Assembly (NCBI GenBank): GCA_937120475.1
Contig: CAKZJV010000007.1
Span: 1,070,068-1,134,067, forward strand
Direction: 5' to 3'
Length of the DNA: 64,000 nt
Source: an uncultured Cryomorphaceae bacterium
Lineage (GTDB): Bacteria > Bacteroidota > Bacteroidia > Flavobacteriales > Schleiferiaceae
The position numbers were made by a program, and so were the translations under genes. Below, one piece after another: positions 45,609 through 54,801 of the stretch. How positions within the stretch are numbered: position 1 is the stretch's first letter; the number at the start of each line of letters is the position of its first letter. The notes beneath the pieces were generated by a model. The model did no database searches and was not told the DNA's origin. It saw only the letters and a list, made by a program, of their open reading frames with translations.

Positions 45609-47084
45609 TTGGGACGTGCTCCATTAGGAAATATTCTCAAATACATTATCTCGGCCCTGCTGGCCGCTGTTACCGGCTACCTGATGGTAAGCAGGGGCTT
45701 GGCGGTGGCGGGCGTGGCTATTGGTATTCCCTTGCTCCTGGGCTTTTTTGTGATTTTTTTCCGTTGGCCTAAAACCGGGGTTTACTTTGTACTTATCATG
45801 TCCTTTATCCTCCCCATTTTAGGGCGGTACCTCCCCTCGGGCATACCCTTCGGGCTTACGGTGGATATTATGCTGGTGTTTACCTACATCGTGTTGTTTT
45901 TAAAACATTGGAAAAAAGTAGATTTTTCGCTGGCGGCCAACGAAGTTATGTTGCTGATGACCATATGGATGGCCTATATTATCCTGCAGATTGTAAACCC
46001 GGAAGCGTACAGCTTTGCGGCCTGGTTTTATTCCATGAGAGGGGTGGCCCTGTACCAGTTTTTATTGATTGGCCTTTGTTTTATCCTGTTCACCGATCGT
46101 AAGGATTGGTACCAGTTTTTTAATATTTGGCTGGGTATGTCGGTACTGGCCATCCTCTGGGCCATGAAACAAAAGGTGTTCGGGGTAGATTCTTACGAAC
46201 AAAGGTGGTTGGATGACGGTGCTGCCGTTACCCACGTTCTTTTCGGTAAACTACGGATATTCTCCTATTATTTTGATGCCGGAACCTTTGGGGCGGCCAT
46301 GGGACAAATCTCTATTATGAGCTTTATACTGGCTTTGGGGCCATGGAGCATGGGCAGACGGGTTTTTTACGTGGTGTTAGGGCTTTTTTCCTTTTATGCC
46401 TTAATGCTGAGCGGCACGCGCGGTGCCCTGGCGGTACCGGCTATAGGTGGTATCCTGTACCTCATTATGACCCGTAACTTCCGGATGCTGACGGTAGGGG
46501 GTGCCATTTTGTTAAGTGGATTTGTATTCCTGAAATACACCACCATTGGTAATGCCAATTACGATATTAACCGCCTTCGTACCGCGCTCGATCCAAATGA
46601 TGCTTCGTTGAACACCCGCTTACGCAACCGGGCACGCCTTACCGAATACTTAAGAGATAAGCCTTTTGGTGGTGGTATGGGTACGGTAGGTTCGTGGGGA
46701 CAACGCTTTTCTCCAGGTACCTGGCTGGCCAATTTCGAGCCGGACGGGCTTTATACGCGTATTCGCGCAGAAACGGGCCTTATCGGACGTATTTTTTACG
46801 TAGGTATGTGGGTTTTTATACTGGTGCGCGGGGTAATATTCATGTGGCGCTTCCCCGATATGGAGCGCAGAAATATTTCCATGGCCATTTTAGCGGGTTA
46901 TGCGGGCATACTGGTTGCCAATTATGGTAACTCGGTATTAACGCAATTCCCGGTATCTATTACCACCTTTATAGCCGTAGTGTTTGTTTACAATATGCGC
47001 TACTGGAACGAGGCCGGGCATTTTGAACTGCCCGATAAACCTACTCCAAGGCTGGGCCGTAAGCCCGATGATTTGCCGGAATAG
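45609..47084 (+). CDS. O-antigen ligase / Wzy-like polymerase family membrane protein
   Basis: 491-residue protein with ten or more membrane helices and one large outside loop (about residues 315-385), the layout of Wzy polymerases and WaaL ligases. The LSGTRGALAVPAIGG stretch near residue 265 is the typical Wzy_C motif. It starts with TTG at 45609, 6 bases after the secreted protein gene. In this locus, which also has a flippase and a Wzc-like protein, polymerase is the likelier role; ligase cannot be excluded. It is followed by a bidirectional terminator. Confidence 0.88.
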   Translation: MGRAPLGNILKYIISALLAAVTGYLMVSRGLAVAGVAIGIPLLLGFFVIFFRWPKTGVYFVLIMSFILPILGRYLPSGIPFGLTVDIMLVFTYIVLFLKHWKKVDFSLAANEVMLLMTIWMAYIILQIVNPEAYSFAAWFYSMRGVALYQFLLIGLCFILFTDRKDWYQFFNIWLGMSVLAILWAMKQKVFGVDSYEQRWLDDGAAVTHVLFGKLRIFSYYFDAGTFGAAMGQISIMSFILALGPWSMGRRVFYVVLGLFSFYALMLSGTRGALAVPAIGGILYLIMTRNFRMLTVGGAILLSGFVFLKYTTIGNANYDINRLRTALDPNDASLNTRLRNRARLTEYLRDKPFGGGMGTVGSWGQRFSPGTWLANFEPDGLYTRIRAETGLIGRIFYVGMWVFILVRGVIFMWRFPDMERRNISMAILAGYAGILVANYGNSVLTQFPVSITTFIAVVFVYNMRYWNEAGHFELPDKPTPRLGRKPDDLPE

Positions 47085-47168: not shown

Positions 47169-49382
47169 TTAGTTATTGCGATTATGACTGAACTTCCGGG
47201 AGTGGAATTCCAGGGTAAAAATCATCTTCATAAACCTACGCAGGAAGGAACGTGACTTTTTAATATCACCCAGCACCACATCCATGTAATCGGGATCTAC
47301 ACCGTTTACAATCAACCTGGGTTGTACATTAAGGGTATTGATGAATTCCTTGATGGCAAAGCGATCTGCCTTGTTCCACGAGCGGTGGGCCGAGAGTACA
47401 CAAAAAGCCATATCCGCTTTCTCGGCAAGATCCAGCGGATACTGTTCGGTTATAATTCCCTCGATGGTTACAAATACAAAGTCGTACAGGGAGGAGGTAT
47501 AACCGGAAGGGATAAGATCATCGAAGTTGCGGGTTTTTAAGAAGTCGCGACCGGCCTGGTGTACACTGTTGTCGTAAAAGGCTTCGGTATCTATGGCTTT
47601 ATGGGTTAGCACCAGCACCTTGAAATTCATGGATACCAATTCATTGGCCAGCAGGTGGGTCATAAACGCCTTACCATCGCTTTCACGGGTGCTGAATACC
47701 AGCACATATTTCGGTTTCTTTTGGGTAACGCCAAGGGCCCGCATTTCCAGGCGGGTATTCTGGCTCATTAAGCCCAGGGCCTTGTCCTTCAGCCACTCCA
47801 TATCCACACTACGGTTTTTGCTATCCTCGCGTAAATCAGGAAAAGCACCCAAAAGCTTAAGTCCGGTAAGTTCCTCTGCTCTTTCCGGATGCCGCACGGT
47901 GTTATCGAGAAACTCCATGATTACGATGATACTAAAGGGTACCGTAAAACCGATTACCGCAGCTACCAGCACCAACAAGGTGGATTTAGACTTCAGGGGC
48001 TGCAAAGGATAATTGGGTGGTACCGTAACTACCAAACCACCGGTAGCCAAGGTTTCACTTTGCTGGCGCATCATGGCCATATTCATACTATGCAGCAATT
48101 CCAGGTAGTGACGTTCCTCTACGGCAATTTCACGTTCCATACGGGCAATTTCGGAGCCCAGGGGTGCAAACTCATCGTAAACGGAGCGGAAATAAGCTTT
48201 ACGCGTTTCAAAAACTTCCAGGCGCGCGTTCGCTTCATCCAGGGCCAGTGTATAACTCAACCATTCTTGTAATATATCCTTGAGGGGAACTCCTTCGGTG
48301 GTTTTACCGTATTGATAACGCTTTTCAAGGGTATTATTGAGCTGTGCCTCCAGTTTAGCCGCATTGTTTTTAAGTTTTTCCAACTCTTTAGCGTCCTTAT
48401 AATACACTTCGAGCTGGGCAATTTTATACTTGATATCGGCCAACTGCTTGCGCTTCTCCAGTATATCATCGCTGAACTTTACAATTTCCTTGTTCAGTTC
48501 CAGTTGCTTTTCCAGTTTTTCCACCGATGCCTCCGCTGCAGCTTTAACCGCCAGTTCCTTTTGGTACTCATCCTCCATCATCTCCTTAAGGGTCGCAATG
48601 GATTTAGTTTGTTCCTGGTAGTTAATAATGCGGTTTTTGATGCGGAAGTCTTTAAGCTTGGCCTCGGCCACTTGCAAGCGCTGATTAGCCAGTTCAACTT
48701 GCTCCCTGAAATACTCGATTACATCGCTGGATTGCCCCATTTTAATCTGGGCCATCTTATCGGTAAAAACATCATTCAGTATTTCGAGGGTGCTTTGGGT
48801 GATGCCGGGATCTGCCCAGGTATAGCTGATTTTGATAAGGTCAGAGTTTTGCAGGCGATAAACACTGATGCGCTGGATGGATTTGTAGCTGTAAGGAGAA
48901 CCGGCATCTTCGAAAGTAAGTTTTACCAGGTGGCTATCGTAGTTTTTTCGTTTGTACTCCCGCAGGTTTTCAATGGTTTCGAACATAGAGCCGGGCACCA
49001 GCAGGGAATCCTCCAGTTCCTGCGGCATTTTATACCGAAAATGACCCCAGTTTTCTTCGGTAATGTAACGAGGGTCAGCACTATCCAGCATCATGTGGCG
49101 GTAAAGCAAACGCTCGCCTACTTCCACCAGGGTTTGCTTGGATTGAATAATATTGATAAGGTTATCGTATTCGTTATTGGTGGCAAAAAAGTCGAGAGCT
49201 GAGTTTTCTACGGAAGCCACGTTAAGTCCTGAGGCAATACCGGTGTACACCTCTGTTTCAGATTGATATTGTTTTGGCAGGTTACGGGTAAGAAAAAACA
49301 CCACAATAGCCAATACAATGGAGCAGAGAAGAAATAGATTGAGATTGCGGTTTAATACCCTGAAAAACTGGACTAAACTCAT
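47169..49382 (-). CDS. Wzc-like polysaccharide copolymerase with degenerate kinase domain
   Basis: 737-residue inner membrane protein that should set chain length and help export. It has the Wzz-type N-terminal helix (residues 17-33), a long periplasmic coiled-coil section (about 200-420), the Pro-rich NYPLQPLKSKST before the second helix (about 465-490), and a cytoplasmic domain in the position of a BY-kinase. That domain starts VLVFSTRESDGKAFMTHLLA, where active kinases have GxxxGKS/T. The P-loop is lost, and the C-terminal tail has no tyrosine cluster. It is thus probably an inactive kinase. It is last in the six-gene operon and overlaps the TolC-like gene by 4 bases. Confidence 0.9.
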   Translation of the reverse strand: MSLVQFFRVLNRNLNLFLLCSIVLAIVVFFLTRNLPKQYQSETEVYTGIASGLNVASVENSALDFFATNNEYDNLINIIQSKQTLVEVGERLLYRHMMLDSADPRYITEENWGHFRYKMPQELEDSLLVPGSMFETIENLREYKRKNYDSHLVKLTFEDAGSPYSYKSIQRISVYRLQNSDLIKISYTWADPGITQSTLEILNDVFTDKMAQIKMGQSSDVIEYFREQVELANQRLQVAEAKLKDFRIKNRIINYQEQTKSIATLKEMMEDEYQKELAVKAAAEASVEKLEKQLELNKEIVKFSDDILEKRKQLADIKYKIAQLEVYYKDAKELEKLKNNAAKLEAQLNNTLEKRYQYGKTTEGVPLKDILQEWLSYTLALDEANARLEVFETRKAYFRSVYDEFAPLGSEIARMEREIAVEERHYLELLHSMNMAMMRQQSETLATGGLVVTVPPNYPLQPLKSKSTLLVLVAAVIGFTVPFSIIVIMEFLDNTVRHPERAEELTGLKLLGAFPDLREDSKNRSVDMEWLKDKALGLMSQNTRLEMRALGVTQKKPKYVLVFSTRESDGKAFMTHLLANELVSMNFKVLVLTHKAIDTEAFYDNSVHQAGRDFLKTRNFDDLIPSGYTSSLYDFVFVTIEGIITEQYPLDLAEKADMAFCVLSAHRSWNKADRFAIKEFINTLNVQPRLIVNGVDPDYMDVVLGDIKKSRSFLRRFMKMIFTLEFHSRKFSHNRNN

Positions 49383-50173
49383 TTGGTATACCTTGTGTAT
49401 TTAAACTTGCTAAACGGCACTCCTACCATACGTTCCAAACGGGTATAAGCATTGCTGAACTGTGTGCGCAGCTGTTCGTATTCCGATGCATAACGGGCTT
49501 TTAATTCAGCCGTTTGCCCCAGTTGATCCAAAGAAAGTTCACCATCCCGAAAACGTTCCTCGGCCATATCTGAAATGAGCCGTGATGACTCCTTAGCCTC
49601 GGAAATAATATTAAGTAACCGCTGTAGCAGCAACAATTGGTTGTAGGTTTCTATTACTCTTTCGCGCACCTGCCTTTCTACTTCGTTGTATTTGGCTTCC
49701 TGGCTTTCTACCATCGCTTCTGCGCGCTTTATGCGGTCCTTACGGCCGTACCAGCTACTTACGGGAATGGTCACCCCTACTCCGAGGTTGTAACCTTCGT
49801 TAACCTGGTTACCTCCTATCAGTAAGCCGCTTAATATCACTTGGTTACCGTATGACCAGTTGTACCCACCGATAAAGCGGATATCCTCGGCCCATCTTTT
49901 CTTTTCTATTATTACGTCATACTCTGAGGCCTCTATTAGTGCCTCGTAATAATCTTTGTCCGGTGCATGGGTAAGTGCGGAGTCTATTAAGACCGAAAGA
50001 GGCGGCAAATAGTCCAGAATATTGATATCCAGCGGTAAAATGGAGTCGGTTTCATTTTCCAATGAAACCTCTACAGAATCCACTTGCGCGCTCATTTGCA
50101 GTACCATTACCGTAAAGATACTGGAGAGCAGAGCTCGCATCCGGGGGGCGTAAAAGCACTTTTTAACAAACAT
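49379..50173 (-). CDS. Half-size TolC-like outer membrane factor
   Basis: 264-residue outer membrane efflux (OEP/TolC) family protein. TolC proteins normally have two repeats and about 450 residues. Here there is one: after the signal peptide come LIDSALTHAPDKDYYEALIE, beta-strand segments (GYNWSYGNQVILSG, GVGVTIPVSSW), and one helical hairpin (AEAMVESQEAKYNEVERQVR to YTRLERMVGVPFSKF). The frame is open from signal to stop, with no sign of frameshift. The ATG at 50173 abuts the previous stop; one at 50140 (MRALLSSIF) is an alternative start. It might be the outer membrane exit for the polysaccharide, since no Wza is encoded nearby (inference). Confidence 0.85.
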   Translation of the reverse strand: MFVKKCFYAPRMRALLSSIFTVMVLQMSAQVDSVEVSLENETDSILPLDINILDYLPPLSVLIDSALTHAPDKDYYEALIEASEYDVIIEKKRWAEDIRFIGGYNWSYGNQVILSGLLIGGNQVNEGYNLGVGVTIPVSSWYGRKDRIKRAEAMVESQEAKYNEVERQVRERVIETYNQLLLLQRLLNIISEAKESSRLISDMAEERFRDGELSLDQLGQTAELKARYASEYEQLRTQFSNAYTRLERMVGVPFSKFKYTRYTK

Positions 50174-51313
50174 TCAAACATTTTCTTTTTGAAACAATGC
50201 CGGGATAGTCTTTAAAATCAGACGAATATCATTCCAGAAACTGAAGTTCTTCGCGTATTTATTGTCGAGGGCTTTCCGTTCTTCTTCGGACATATCACCC
50301 TTACCTCTTTTCTCCACCTGCCATAGTCCGGTTATACCTGCCGGGGCCAAAAAGCGCTCTCCCCAATCATCGGAGGTCAACTGCTCCGCTTCATAAAGGG
50401 GCAACGGACGGTTGCCTACAATGGACATATCGCCTTTTAGCACGTTCAGCAACTGGGGTAGCTCGTCAATACTGGTGTTACGGATAAATTTACCCACCTT
50501 GGTTACCCTGGGGTCATTGGCAATTTTCACAAAGGTTCCGGCCTGTTGTTTTCGTTTTAATTCCAGGTATTCTTCCTCGCTCATGGGGGTACCGTCTTTA
50601 TAAATCAAGGTTGGTGAACCCAAAAGCGAATGATACTCCTTGCGTAGATTATCGGTGGATTCCTGCTTGGCGTACTGGTTAAGGTGTTGCACCTCTTTCA
50701 AGCGTTCGGCCGCATCCACGTACATCGAACGGAATTTGTAGAAATCAAAAACCTTGTACCCGGTTCCCACCCGTTTTGAAACGTAGAATATGGGCCCTTT
50801 GGACTCCAGCTTAAGGGCCAGTACCACTAGCAAAAGAACCGGTGATAGCAAAACCAGTGCAGTGCCTGCCACTACAATATCAAAAATCCGTTTGGCCACC
50901 GGTATTTTATACTCATCATATTTTGTCTTCCGGGCATCGCCCAGTTTGGCATCCAGCATCTGCTTAAGGAAGTCGATACGCTCCACCACTACCTGCTCGG
51001 AAATATGGGGTTCGTACAATTCGGTAATACCAAGTTTCAGAAACTCTTTTTTACGGCCGTTTTCAAGGTTTCGGCTAACCAACGAATAAGGTATTTTGAA
51101 GCTGTTGAGCAAATCACGGTAACGCTCAAAAATACCATCTCCTTTCAATCCTCTCAGTTGATATTCGGATAGCACCAGATCATAGCCGGAGAGGTTTTCC
51201 AACTGGTTGTGAAAGCCCACAACATTCTTTACCTGCTTTAGCTCCACATTTTCCAATACGGAGTAGCGTTCTACCAGTTCATTCTCTTCCCCTATGTATA
51301 ATATGCGTTTCAA
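50174..51313 (-). CDS. Phosphoglycosyl transferase fused to a degenerate receiver domain
   Basis: 379-residue protein. Residues about 135-379 are a bacterial sugar transferase that loads the first sugar-phosphate onto undecaprenyl phosphate: KRIFDIVVAGTALVLLSP (membrane element), FYVSKRVGTGYKVFDFYKFR, SIDELPQLLNVLKGDMSIVG and GITGLWQV. Instead of the usual membrane domains, residues 1-120 look like a response-regulator receiver whose key residues are changed: E50 for the phospho-Asp (DLVLSEYQL), S80 kept, E101 for the Lys (LYEPH), and no acidic pair after the first strand. It should not be phosphorylated and may act as a docking or phospho-mimic domain. It starts with TTG overlapping the receiver gene stop (TTGA). 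Confidence 0.9.
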   Translation of the reverse strand: MKRILYIGEENELVERYSVLENVELKQVKNVVGFHNQLENLSGYDLVLSEYQLRGLKGDGIFERYRDLLNSFKIPYSLVSRNLENGRKKEFLKLGITELYEPHISEQVVVERIDFLKQMLDAKLGDARKTKYDEYKIPVAKRIFDIVVAGTALVLLSPVLLLVVLALKLESKGPIFYVSKRVGTGYKVFDFYKFRSMYVDAAERLKEVQHLNQYAKQESTDNLRKEYHSLLGSPTLIYKDGTPMSEEEYLELKRKQQAGTFVKIANDPRVTKVGKFIRNTSIDELPQLLNVLKGDMSIVGNRPLPLYEAEQLTSDDWGERFLAPAGITGLWQVEKRGKGDMSEEERKALDNKYAKNFSFWNDIRLILKTIPALFQKENV

Positions 51314-51690
51314 GATCGCAGGCTGATTAGGTTGTCAATACGGAGACCGAGTTCTTCGGGGTTAAAGGGCTTTATAAGGTAATCATTGGCCCCCAGCTTC
51401 AGGCACTTAATCCTTTCGGCACTACTCTCTTCGCCTGAAAGTACAATCAGGGGTACATCACTGAAAAAACCACTCTCACGAACTTTTTTGATGTATTCAA
51501 AACCATTGATCTCGGGCATATTCAAATCGGCCACTACCAAATCGGGAATGTTTCCGGAGTACATCCACTCCAGGCCTTCGCGGCCATTTTCGAGTGAAAT
51601 AACCTCGTACTTTTCTTTGAGAATCTGCTCTAACAGCTTTCTCATGATTGGTTCATCATCAATGATCAAAACTTGTTTCATACGTGGCAT
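51310..51690 (-). CDS. Single-domain response regulator
   Basis: 126-residue stand-alone receiver with all catalytic residues: acidic pair DD (residues 11-12), phosphoacceptor D55 (DLVVADLNMP), S in VLSGEE and K in YLIKPF. It has no output domain. ATG at 51690 abuts the Hpt gene stop; a second ATG at 51681 (MKQVLIIDDE) is possible. It could pass phosphate to or from the Hpt protein, or bind the receiver-like domain of the transferase encoded next; both are inferences from the operon. Confidence 0.94.
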   Translation of the reverse strand: MPRMKQVLIIDDEPIMRKLLEQILKEKYEVISLENGREGLEWMYSGNIPDLVVADLNMPEINGFEYIKKVRESGFFSDVPLIVLSGEESSAERIKCLKLGANDYLIKPFNPEELGLRIDNLISLRS

Positions 51691-52029
51691 TTAGAGGGTG
51701 CGTAATTGTTCAAAAGCGGTTTTTAAAACTTCATCCACTTTGCCTATTTCACCGTTCAGAGCTTCATCGGGTTGCTCATTCTTTCCCTTGTTCTCCACTT
51801 CCCTGATCTCGCTGTAAATAGATTTGATCCCGAATAGGTCAATATTGGGCTTTATCTTATGGGCAATACCGCCCATGGTTTTCCAGTCCTTTTGGGCGTG
51901 GGCCGTTTTCATTTCCTCCAATTGCCCCGGAGTATGTTCCAAAAAGGTTTCAATCATACTATGCACAAACTCCTCACTACCTCCTGCCAATTCCTCCAGC
52001 TGACTTAAATCGTAAACTTTATCAGACAT
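51691..52029 (-). CDS. Histidine phosphotransfer (Hpt) protein
   Basis: 112-residue single Hpt domain: a helical bundle with the phosphorylatable H57 in GGIAHKIKPNIDLFG. The start is the ATG at 52029 rather than the TTG just before it. Hpt proteins shuttle phosphate between receiver domains in multistep relays. The operon holds two intact receivers (this gene's neighbours) but no histidine kinase, so a hybrid kinase elsewhere would have to feed it. It lies 17 bases after the sigma-54 regulator gene. Confidence 0.9.
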   Translation of the reverse strand: MSDKVYDLSQLEELAGGSEEFVHSMIETFLEHTPGQLEEMKTAHAQKDWKTMGGIAHKIKPNIDLFGIKSIYSEIREVENKGKNEQPDEALNGEIGKVDEVLKTAFEQLRTL

Positions 52030-52046
52030 CAACGTTTTGGTTTTAC

Positions 52047-53393
52047 TTAAATGGTTAATTCATTGTTCTTTATCATGCGGTAAATGGTGCTTTTCCCGAT
52101 GTCGAGTTTATGAGCCACCTTCACCACATTACGGTCGTATTTATCCAGGTAATGCTGGATAATGCGTGCGGTATAATCTTTCAACGTTGCCTCCTCACTA
52201 ATCAGGTTATCCATGGTAGAGGTTGAACTGAAATTGATATCCCGTTCTTCTATCTTCCCGTCATCCACCATTACCGTAGCCAATTCCACTACCGCCTTTA
52301 ATTCACGTACGTTACCCGGCCAACGATAGTTCAGTAGCTTTTTTTGCGCCCCGTTGGTGATCTGGATTTTACCGAGCTTGTTTTCTCGGGCAAATTCATC
52401 TACAAAGTGTTTGGCCAAAAGAACAATGTCGTTTTCCCGCTCCCGCAACGGTGGAAGCTCTATGGGTAGGCCCAGCAATCGATAGTAAAGGTCTTCCCTG
52501 AAGTTGCCACTTTTCACTTCTTCCGCCAGGTTACGGTGTGTAGCTACAATAACGCGTGCATTAATTTTTACGGCCTGGTTGCTGCCGATTCGGGTAACTT
52601 CTTTCTCCTGCAATACTCTTAAGAGTTTAGCCTGTAGCTGCAGGTCCATTTCTCCTATTTCATCCAGGAATATAGTGCCACCATTGGCCTCTTCAAACTT
52701 CCCGATGCGCTTATTAATAGCTCCGGTAAAGGCTCCTTTTTCGTGACCAAAAAGCTCACTCTCCAAAAGGTCACGGGGTATAGCGGCAATATTTACGGCC
52801 ACCAGTGATTTTTTATGAAACTTGGAATTGTAGTGAATAGCCTTGGCTACCAACTCTTTTCCTGTTCCGGTTTCACCGGTAACCGATACCGTAATATTGG
52901 TTTGAGCGGCTTTTTCGATAAGCTTGAATACATTCTTGATAGCCGGGCTGTTTCCCTTAATGTTGGAGAAATCATACTTCTGGTTAACTTCTTCCCTCAG
53001 CTTATCGATTTCATCGCGCAGGCGGGCATTTTCCCGAACATGGTTGGACGCATTCCACATGCGCTCCTTCGCATTATCATCCTTAACAATGTAATCGTAA
53101 GCCCCTTCTTTCAAGAGGTTTACTGCCGTACTTACATCTTCCTGACCACTTACTATTACCACAGGTATCTCCGGGTGAGTTTCCTTTATTTTTCGGAGGA
53201 TTTCTATCCCCGACATCTCTGGCAAAGAGTAGTCCAAAAAGATAAGGTTGGGCTTTTTATAGAGGTTATCCATGCACTCCTTTCCGCCTCGAAATACTTC
53301 TACTTCATTGTCAGGATTGAGTGACAGGTGGTGTTGAGCCATTCTTGAGTACAGCTCATTGTCGTCCACCACAAAAATTTTTAGAATATCCAT
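52047..53393 (-). CDS. Sigma-54-dependent response regulator (NtrC family)
   Basis: 448-residue activator with receiver (residues 1-120, phosphoacceptor D54 in LIFLDYSLPEMSG), AAA+ domain (Walker A GETGTGKE, sigma-54 contact loop GAFTGA, GGTIFLDEIGEMDLQLQAKL) and C-terminal Fis-type helix-turn-helix (VAHKLDIGKSTIYRMI). All parts needed for phosphorylation and sigma-54 activation are present. It heads the six-gene operon that ends in the Wzc-like gene, and probably controls polysaccharide genes. A perfect inverted repeat lies 51-73 bases upstream of its ATG. I found no clear GG-N10-GC sigma-54 promoter there. Confidence 0.95.
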   Translation of the reverse strand: MDILKIFVVDDNELYSRMAQHHLSLNPDNEVEVFRGGKECMDNLYKKPNLIFLDYSLPEMSGIEILRKIKETHPEIPVVIVSGQEDVSTAVNLLKEGAYDYIVKDDNAKERMWNASNHVRENARLRDEIDKLREEVNQKYDFSNIKGNSPAIKNVFKLIEKAAQTNITVSVTGETGTGKELVAKAIHYNSKFHKKSLVAVNIAAIPRDLLESELFGHEKGAFTGAINKRIGKFEEANGGTIFLDEIGEMDLQLQAKLLRVLQEKEVTRIGSNQAVKINARVIVATHRNLAEEVKSGNFREDLYYRLLGLPIELPPLRERENDIVLLAKHFVDEFARENKLGKIQITNGAQKKLLNYRWPGNVRELKAVVELATVMVDDGKIEERDINFSSTSTMDNLISEEATLKDYTARIIQHYLDKYDRNVVKVAHKLDIGKSTIYRMIKNNELTI

Positions 53394-53469: not shown

Positions 53470-54801
53470 TTAGGCTGAGTTGCCAACATACTTTTTAACA
53501 AGCCTTACGAACTCATAACCACCTTTTTGGAAGATATTCCTAAAATGGATCGAGATGTGTTTCCGGAGAAATAAAACTCCGAAAAGTATGCCGGTACCAA
53601 AGGTGATGATGGATATAAAAGCTACCCAAACCAGATTATCGGAAAACTGTAAAACCAGGATATCGCCCACCACATTGGCCAATAACATGAGCATTACCTT
53701 GTAAAAATTAAGGTCGGGGCGGTTGATCACATCCAGGGCAATACCCGTAAAACGGTCGAGAGGGGTAAGCGCGGTATAAATGGCAAAAACACGCAGCACA
53801 TTAGCACTGCTGAGGTATTCCTCACCACCCAGGGCCAGCACCAGGGGTTCGGCAAATATCAATACCCCGATACTGATGGGCAGGAGCAAAAGAGTAGAGA
53901 AACCGGCACCGGTTTCCAGTTCGTCCTCAAACTCTTTGGTCATACCCACGGCATATTTTTTTGCCAGTTGAGGAAAGGCAATGGCCACAAAAGCCCGCAA
54001 AGGAATGTCAAACAGCCCAATGAGCCGCTCCGCTACATTGTAAACGGCATTGGCACCCGGACCCAAAATGGACATAATGATGAAAGTATCGGAACTCCGC
54101 AGGAAATTACTGCCTACCATAGTGGCCATACTGAACTTACCGAAGTTGAAAAGAGACTTATCCATTTCACGGTTACCAAGACCGAAATATTTCAGTTTGC
54201 TCCAACCGGTGACCAATACCAGTAAAGCCGGAAGAATATTGGAAGCCAGGTAGGCAATGAGGATGAAGTTGAGGCCCGGCTGGAAATAATACTGGTAAAC
54301 TACGCCCAGCAAAAAACTGCCCTGTAAAAAGAAGCGTATCCATACAATACGGTCAAAGCGTACGTAGGCATTTAAAATCCAAACCGCCATGGAGTGGGGT
54401 AAACTGGCCAGGGCTATTGGTACAAACCATTGGAAAAGGTAGCGATAGCTTTCGTTTTGGGTAAAGTAAAAAATGATGTAAAAAACCAGCGCGATACCCA
54501 CCGAGCCAATGAGGGTTATAATCAGGTTTAACTTCCACCCGGAACCGATCACCACTGAAGCTTCTTCCTCGGTATCGCATTCGTTAATGCGTTTGATCAT
54601 GGCGTTGCTGATCATACCAGAGCGCAGCATATCGAAAAGGGTGTACACCGTGAGGAAAAAGCTCCAGTACCCCAACTCCGACATGGAAAAGGAACGGGCC
54701 AGCAGTCCAAAGGTCAGCAAGCCTAAAATAGCTGCGGTACCACTGCTGATCAGAGAAAGTGATTTGTTGGTACGCAAGAGTTTTTTGAATCGGCCTGTCA
54801 C
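53470..54801 (-). CDS. Polysaccharide flippase (Wzx / MATE-like)
   Basis: 443-residue membrane protein with about 12-14 helices of the polysaccharide synthesis/Wzx family, which flips undecaprenyl-linked repeat units across the inner membrane. The N-terminal block LISSGTAAILGLLTFGLLAR and MVGSNFLRSSDTFIIMSILG near residue 220 are typical. It begins with GTG at 54801 and is divergent from the next glycosyltransferase gene, 63 bases away. It lies 76 bases before the sigma-54 regulator on the same strand. Confidence 0.9.
   Translation of the reverse strand: MTGRFKKLLRTNKSLSLISSGTAAILGLLTFGLLARSFSMSELGYWSFFLTVYTLFDMLRSGMISNAMIKRINECDTEEEASVVIGSGWKLNLIITLIGSVGIALVFYIIFYFTQNESYRYLFQWFVPIALASLPHSMAVWILNAYVRFDRIVWIRFFLQGSFLLGVVYQYYFQPGLNFILIAYLASNILPALLVLVTGWSKLKYFGLGNREMDKSLFNFGKFSMATMVGSNFLRSSDTFIIMSILGPGANAVYNVAERLIGLFDIPLRAFVAIAFPQLAKKYAVGMTKEFEDELETGAGFSTLLLLPISIGVLIFAEPLVLALGGEEYLSSANVLRVFAIYTALTPLDRFTGIALDVINRPDLNFYKVMLMLLANVVGDILVLQFSDNLVWVAFISIITFGTGILFGVLFLRKHISIHFRNIFQKGGYEFVRLVKKYVGNSA

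Follow-up and report, generated by a model that had tools for sequence, protein, structure and literature searches.

A small-type phosphoglycosyl transferase with a degenerate receiver domain, paired with an intact receiver across Bacteroidota

Why should the enzyme that starts a polysaccharide carry a receiver-like domain that appears unfit for phosphorylation, and why should the gene of an intact receiver adjoin it? The locus that raises this question lies in a stretch of 64,000 nucleotides from an uncultured Cryomorphaceae bacterium (hereafter the window). The transferase reading frame (51313–50174, minus strand, TTG start, 379 amino acids) is real, and the named relatives are Owenweeksia/Cryomorphaceae-like Flavobacteriales. 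The receiver gene upstream ends 4 bases into the transferase gene, its stop overlapping the TTG start. In the direction of transcription the operon consists of the NtrC-type regulator, a 14 bp gap, Hpt, 0 bp, the receiver, the 4 bp overlap, the transferase, 0 bp, OEP, a further 4 bp overlap and the chain-length protein, such that the spacing between genes ranges only from a 4-base overlap to a 14-base gap (Table 1). The placement of the enzyme in one operon with an intact receiver and an Hpt protein, as originally predicted, is thus correct, both genes lying directly upstream and tightly spaced.

Table 1. Positions of the features of the transferase locus within the window.
Feature	Position	Strand	Basis or remark
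Pseudo-receiver phosphoglycosyl transferase, 379 aa, TTG start	50174..51313	-	Relatives keep full length
Pseudo-receiver domain, residues 1-130, (beta-alpha)5 receiver fold	50924..51313	-	Structure and profiles
E50 codon, phospho-Asp position	51164..51166	-	Alignment; Glu in 62/91 homologues
P102 codon, conserved-Lys position (not E101)	51008..51010	-	Alignment
Catalytic phosphoglycosyl transferase domain, residues 139-376; membrane helix 139-170	50186..50899	-	Pfam, AlphaFold2, VIA
Catalytic Asp-Glu pair D283-E284	50462..50467	-	Invariant in 67 aligned homologues
Intact single-domain receiver, 126 aa; D11, D12, D55, S85, K107	51310..51690	-	4 bp overlap with transferase
Stand-alone Hpt phosphotransfer protein	51691..52032	-	Sole stand-alone Hpt match in genome
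NtrC-type sigma-54-dependent response regulator	52047..53393	-	Family search
Outer membrane efflux-type (TolC-like) protein, OEP	49379..50173	-	Family search
Chain-length determinant protein (Wzz/GNVR)	47169..49382	-	Family search
Polysaccharide flippase, Wzx-like (Polysacc_synt_3)	53470..54801	-	Family search
Wzy_C polymerase/ligase-like membrane protein	45609..47084	+	Family search

Polysacc_synt_3, Wzy_C and Wzz/GNVR matches all fall within the window, and several glycosyltransferases also flank the transferase operon. With the flippase and the Wzy_C protein flanking it as well, the locus therefore makes a Wzx/Wzy-type polysaccharide. The export gene beside the transferase (49379–50173) is TolC/OEP-like and not of the Wza type, and OEP and chain-length genes are found 3' of the transferase in most of the homologous loci. 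The chain-length protein (47169–49382) has Wzz and GNVR matches without a kinase-domain match. The place of its P-loop reads STRESDGKAF, and it is perhaps a tyrosine pseudokinase.

The catalytic domain identifies the class of the enzyme. Residues 141–374 match Bac_transf (PF02397; E 7.8e-60), and the catalytic pair D283–E284 is invariant in 67 aligned homologues, a combination that marks a monotopic phosphoglycosyl transferase. The catalytic part has the size of the small PglC-like enzymes, and comparison using VIA superposes it on PglC (PDB entry 8e37) over 182 residues with 36% identity (Z 19.6). In the AlphaFold2 model the first long helix after the receiver fold is a 32-residue helix at 139–170, which lies inside the catalytic domain. 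The N-terminal helix bundle and DUF of the large type, as in WbaP (8t53), are absent and residues 1–130 form a receiver fold instead. The protein belongs to the small type, extended by an N-terminal domain that PglC itself lacks, and is not a large enzyme that has lost its helices. The description of the receiver-like domain as standing in place of the usual membrane helices consequently holds relative to the large WbaP-like enzymes but not relative to the small PglC-like ones, which have no such helices.

Of 128 pseudo-receiver transferases, 72 have four cysteines in the motif CxxC-x8-9-CSxLxxDGxxICE within an insertion of the catalytic domain, compared with 0 of 12 other transferases; the motif region is also present in L043, L049, L074 and L101. 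In the window protein the insertion is kept (residues 209–263; 50525–50689) and the cysteines are lost. The motif is a possible metal or redox site.

The relationship of the N-terminal domain to receivers is invisible to a plain family search because residues 1–135 gave no Pfam match at E 1 or better, and hence do not reach the curated cut-off of Response_reg (PF00072). As a single-sequence query against the PDB the domain alone likewise found nothing, and profiles and structure were needed. AlphaFold2 predicts the full transferase with a pLDDT of 84.7, rising to about 95 in the first 120 residues, and the domain alone with a pLDDT of 96.6 and a pTM of 0.90, as five alternating strands and helices. 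VIA-align matches this model to receiver domains with Z up to 16.1, including the PmrA receiver with an rmsd of 2.1 over 117 residues, where the list of matches is informative for the folds that it contains and proves nothing about those absent from it. A WbaP-like DUF was considered as the identity of the domain and rejected: the full model aligns with WbaP over 233 residues with an rmsd of 17.5, compared with an rmsd of about 2 and Z of about 15 for receivers. A profile built from 52 of the domains retrieves receivers from the PDB sequences (best E 1.9e-22, PleD), and profile–profile comparison with the companion receivers, including that of the operon itself, gives a probability of 99.8% (E 8e-28). 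Residues 1–130 are beyond reasonable doubt a receiver fold. The original prediction had made itself depend on a receiver-like fold for these residues and on conservation of the domain in close homologues, and the structure prediction, the profile match to the PDB and the profile–profile comparison agree with the former while the homologues bear out the latter.

In the profile–profile alignment D11–D12, D55, S85, K107 and P108 of the neighbouring receiver correspond to G8–E9, E50, S80, P102 and H103 of the transferase. The fused domain has the degenerate site of a pseudo-receiver: the acidic pair is replaced by G8–E9, the phospho-accepting Asp by E50 and the conserved Lys by P102, while the Thr/Ser site is retained as S80. 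The glutamate at the phospho-Asp position (E50) was predicted correctly, as it aligns with D55. The supposed glutamate at the conserved Lys (E101) is off by one residue. The alignment is ungapped from G95 to I113, so that E101 pairs with Ile106 of the receiver, the Lys column falls on residue 102 and the cis-Pro column on H103. Among 91 aligned homologues position 50 is Glu in 62 and Asp in eight, position 102 is Lys in 24 and Arg in 14, and the complete active-site set is kept in none. Judged from these alignments, degeneration of the site is family-wide. Glu is the commonest replacement in receivers that lack the Asp, and it mimics phosphorylation sometimes but not always (PMC12632262).

Two sequences at the base of the tree (L152 and L155), useful for the order of degeneration, retain the first Asp, the Ser, the Lys and the Pro in the fused domain and carry Glu at the phospho position. 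Because they keep the rest of the site and yet have this Glu, they suggest that the Asp-to-Glu change came early, on a rough tree with weak support at that node.

The intact receiver is a constant neighbour. Homologous loci with over 450 bases of upstream sequence number 93, and in 91 of them a strict gap rule places the gene of a single-domain-length receiver immediately 5' of the transferase gene; these loci include five that repeat contigs of others (for example L009 and L038, the same contig from two collections). The remaining two (L083 and L092) fail the rule only owing to a transferase start placed too far upstream, and inspection places a receiver upstream there too, so that it is present in all 93. 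The two genes are separated by anything from overlaps to about 140 bases, mostly by less than 60. The companion receivers are intact, with the Asp in 85/86 and the Lys in 86/86.

Because similarity to the window protein had been the criterion for collecting the 93 loci, we also searched an evenly drawn sample of 392 Bacteroidota genomes, about 47 of which have a close member, and read 49 loci besides the window. A receiver gene adjoins 36 of the 37 transferases with the domain and four of the 12 close relatives without it (Fisher p 9e-6, with kinship among the loci not fully removed from the counts), compared with none of about 12 other transferases from the same and related genomes. A FastTree phylogeny nests the domain-less forms at several separate points, and absence of the receiver gene is concentrated in two groups of them. 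Apart from L145, the lineages in which that gene is lost are ones that no longer have the domain. Seven domain-less relatives (L095, L111, L114, L162, L163, L165 and L169) still have the receiver gene, so that the pairing does not strictly depend on the pseudo-receiver.

In L145 no receiver gene adjoins the domain-bearing transferase, which has Asp at position 50 and is directly preceded by a histidine kinase. The idea that its fused domain is an intact substitute receiver was dropped, as it has neither the Lys nor the acidic pair despite the Asp. No one-chain fusion of an intact receiver and a transferase was seen among the loci examined.

Median distances are 0.60 for the companion receivers, 0.48 for the catalytic core and 2.06 for the pseudo-receiver, indicating from sequence comparison that the companion receivers evolve slowly, near the rate of the core, whereas the pseudo-receiver evolves fast. 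With the core removed, receiver divergence correlates with that of the pseudo-receiver (partial r 0.49, compared with 0.24 for the core) in a permutation test that ignores the tree.

A published case offers a guide to what the pair might do. In Myxococcus xanthus the phosphorylated single-domain receiver EpsW activates the transferase EpsZ post-translationally by contact, touching both the DUF and the catalytic domain in the proposed model (PMC12802240). Both systems have an intact single-domain receiver and the initiating transferase of a Wzx/Wzy polysaccharide, action on the enzyme being proposed here, and in the family studied here the linkage takes the form of the 4-bp overlap and phylum-wide adjacency. 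EpsZ, however, is large, with membrane helices and a DUF and without a pseudo-receiver, whereas the window enzyme is small with a fused pseudo-receiver, and EpsW is phosphorylated by the chemosensory kinase DifE, while the window operon has an Hpt. The window receiver matches the NCBIfam model of EpsW (NF041866) with E 3e-23 and 81.8 bits, below the cut-off of 200, and the transferase scores 171.7 bits with the EpsZ equivalog (NF041877), below the cut-off of 800. PleD of Caulobacter, which the domain profile matches best among PDB sequences, combines the same set of receiver, pseudo-receiver and enzyme: once phosphorylated, its receiver works through a pseudo-receiver adaptor to control the enzyme (PMC12632262). 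In PleD the set is one chain with a diguanylate cyclase output, whereas in the window the receiver is encoded separately and a membrane enzyme is the output.

We consider it fairly probable that the phosphorylated receiver binds the pseudo-receiver and thereby sets the activity of the transferase. The receiver fold, its degeneration, the intact enzyme and receiver, the tight operon and the phylum-wide pairing are observed; the phosphate route and the binding are what we infer. A hybrid histidine kinase encoded elsewhere would pass phosphate via the operon Hpt to the co-translated single-domain receiver. The pseudo-receiver, presumably unable to accept a phosphoryl group in the usual way, would serve as a docking and allosteric module with which the phosphorylated receiver pairs, probably also touching the catalytic domain, and the pairing would switch on the complete small-type monotopic transferase that would start the Wzx/Wzy-type polysaccharide. 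As to the sign of the effect, activation is more likely than inhibition by analogy with EpsW–EpsZ. Control by direct contact is favoured because the receiver gene constantly adjoins the transferase gene, the two partners are lost jointly, they appear to diverge together and EpsW–EpsZ provides a precedent (PMC12802240). The pseudo-receiver may not be the sole contact, and the receiver may also touch the catalytic domain, since domain-less relatives keep the receiver and the EpsW–EpsZ model includes such a contact. The mechanism proposed for EpsZ, dimer formation, may not carry over because EpsZ is large and small enzymes are said to act as monomers (PMC12802240). Transcriptional control is likely as well because the NtrC-type regulator shares the operon.

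The source of the phosphate can be narrowed down in part. The genome encodes two Hpt domains, that of the operon and one inside an 845-residue hybrid kinase, and a further six hybrid kinases that contain receivers are candidate donors, two of which, at more than 1,300 residues each, may be one-protein systems. In other lineages a hybrid kinase (L048, L049, L061, L064 and L069) or an Hpt (L058) is encoded just upstream of the pair, Hpt adjacency being limited to some lineages. These neighbours, together with the kinases and Hpt of the genome, make a phosphorelay from hybrid kinase through Hpt to receiver plausible at this locus. In L163 and L165 a frame with kinase, receiver and Hpt similarity lies just upstream of the receiver and domain-less transferase; kinase, receiver and/or Hpt-like frames upstream in these two and in L169 look like a whole phosphorelay beside the enzyme.

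The pair usually sits within a larger block with OEP and the chain-length protein, and because of this another operon member could be the target of the receiver. The pseudo-receiver might then be a constitutive structural or dimerization domain held in an active-like shape by its Glu, with the receiver directed at the chain-length protein or the NtrC-type regulator. The Glu in 62/91 homologues fits this, as does the presence among the structural matches of a PhoB D10A/D53E mutant described as constitutively active, and the rapid, spacer-like divergence of the domain (median distance 2.06 compared with 0.48 for the core) and the frequent position of OEP and chain-length genes 3' of the pair point the same way. 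The receiver nevertheless stays where no OEP is recognized directly downstream (for example in L078, L090, L099, L101, L108 and L117), its gene goes missing almost only together with the domain, and it tracks the pseudo-receiver more than the core. We therefore regard this explanation as unlikely.

It is much less credible that the domain acts as a sink or competitor that binds Hpt, the kinase or the receiver and so tunes the NtrC-type relay, in which case the enzyme would feed back on signalling. Competition has been suggested for pseudo-receivers generally (PMC12632262) and Hpt, receiver and NtrC-type regulator do share the operon, but in most lineages Hpt and the NtrC-type regulator are not found beside the pair, while receiver and transferase stay together. 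Loss of the acidic site may also leave a free pocket, and c-di-GMP binding by the ShkA pseudo-receiver has been published; a domain whose ligand is a small molecule, for instance a nucleotide second messenger, and which is only loosely connected with the receiver, would however leave the near-universal adjoining intact receiver unexplained, and we think this the least probable of the readings considered.

Part of the picture is already known, namely that receiver–transferase fusions exist and that a single-domain receiver can control a transferase directly (EpsW–EpsZ). A receiver fused to a small monotopic phosphoglycosyl transferase, the architecture found here, was reported by O'Toole 2021, as cited in PMC12802240 (reference 13), where neither degeneration of the domain nor a constant adjacent intact receiver is described. 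Two features appear to be new: the fused domain has degenerated throughout the family, and across Bacteroidota it is constantly partnered by an intact receiver. A literature search for a Bacteroidetes case of this control gave nothing relevant, and the word 'transferase' is absent from the 2025 review of pseudo-receivers (PMC12632262). The same review calls pseudo-receiver regulation a mystery, and for most of those studied, which are orphans, no partner is obvious. In the present family nearly every genome encodes the likely partner beside the transferase gene, and the output enzyme is directly assayable, so that a switch between phosphorylated receiver and pseudo-receiver enzyme can be tested with two proteins.

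We give slightly better than even chances to the broader proposition that this is a Bacteroidota-wide two-protein switch, in which the phosphorylated receiver docks onto the fused pseudo-receiver as a PleD-like pair split over two proteins. If so, the EpsW–EpsZ principle, known from myxobacteria and a large transferase, would extend to the small transferases found throughout Bacteroidota, reaching Parabacteroides, Pedobacter, Mucilaginibacter and marine lineages, and the domain would join the small number of pseudo-receivers that have both a constant, encoded partner and an enzyme as output. Capsule or biofilm polysaccharide would be controlled at the point where the shared lipid carrier is committed. 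The pairing suggests that a phosphorylation signal switches on production of the sugar polymer at its first step.
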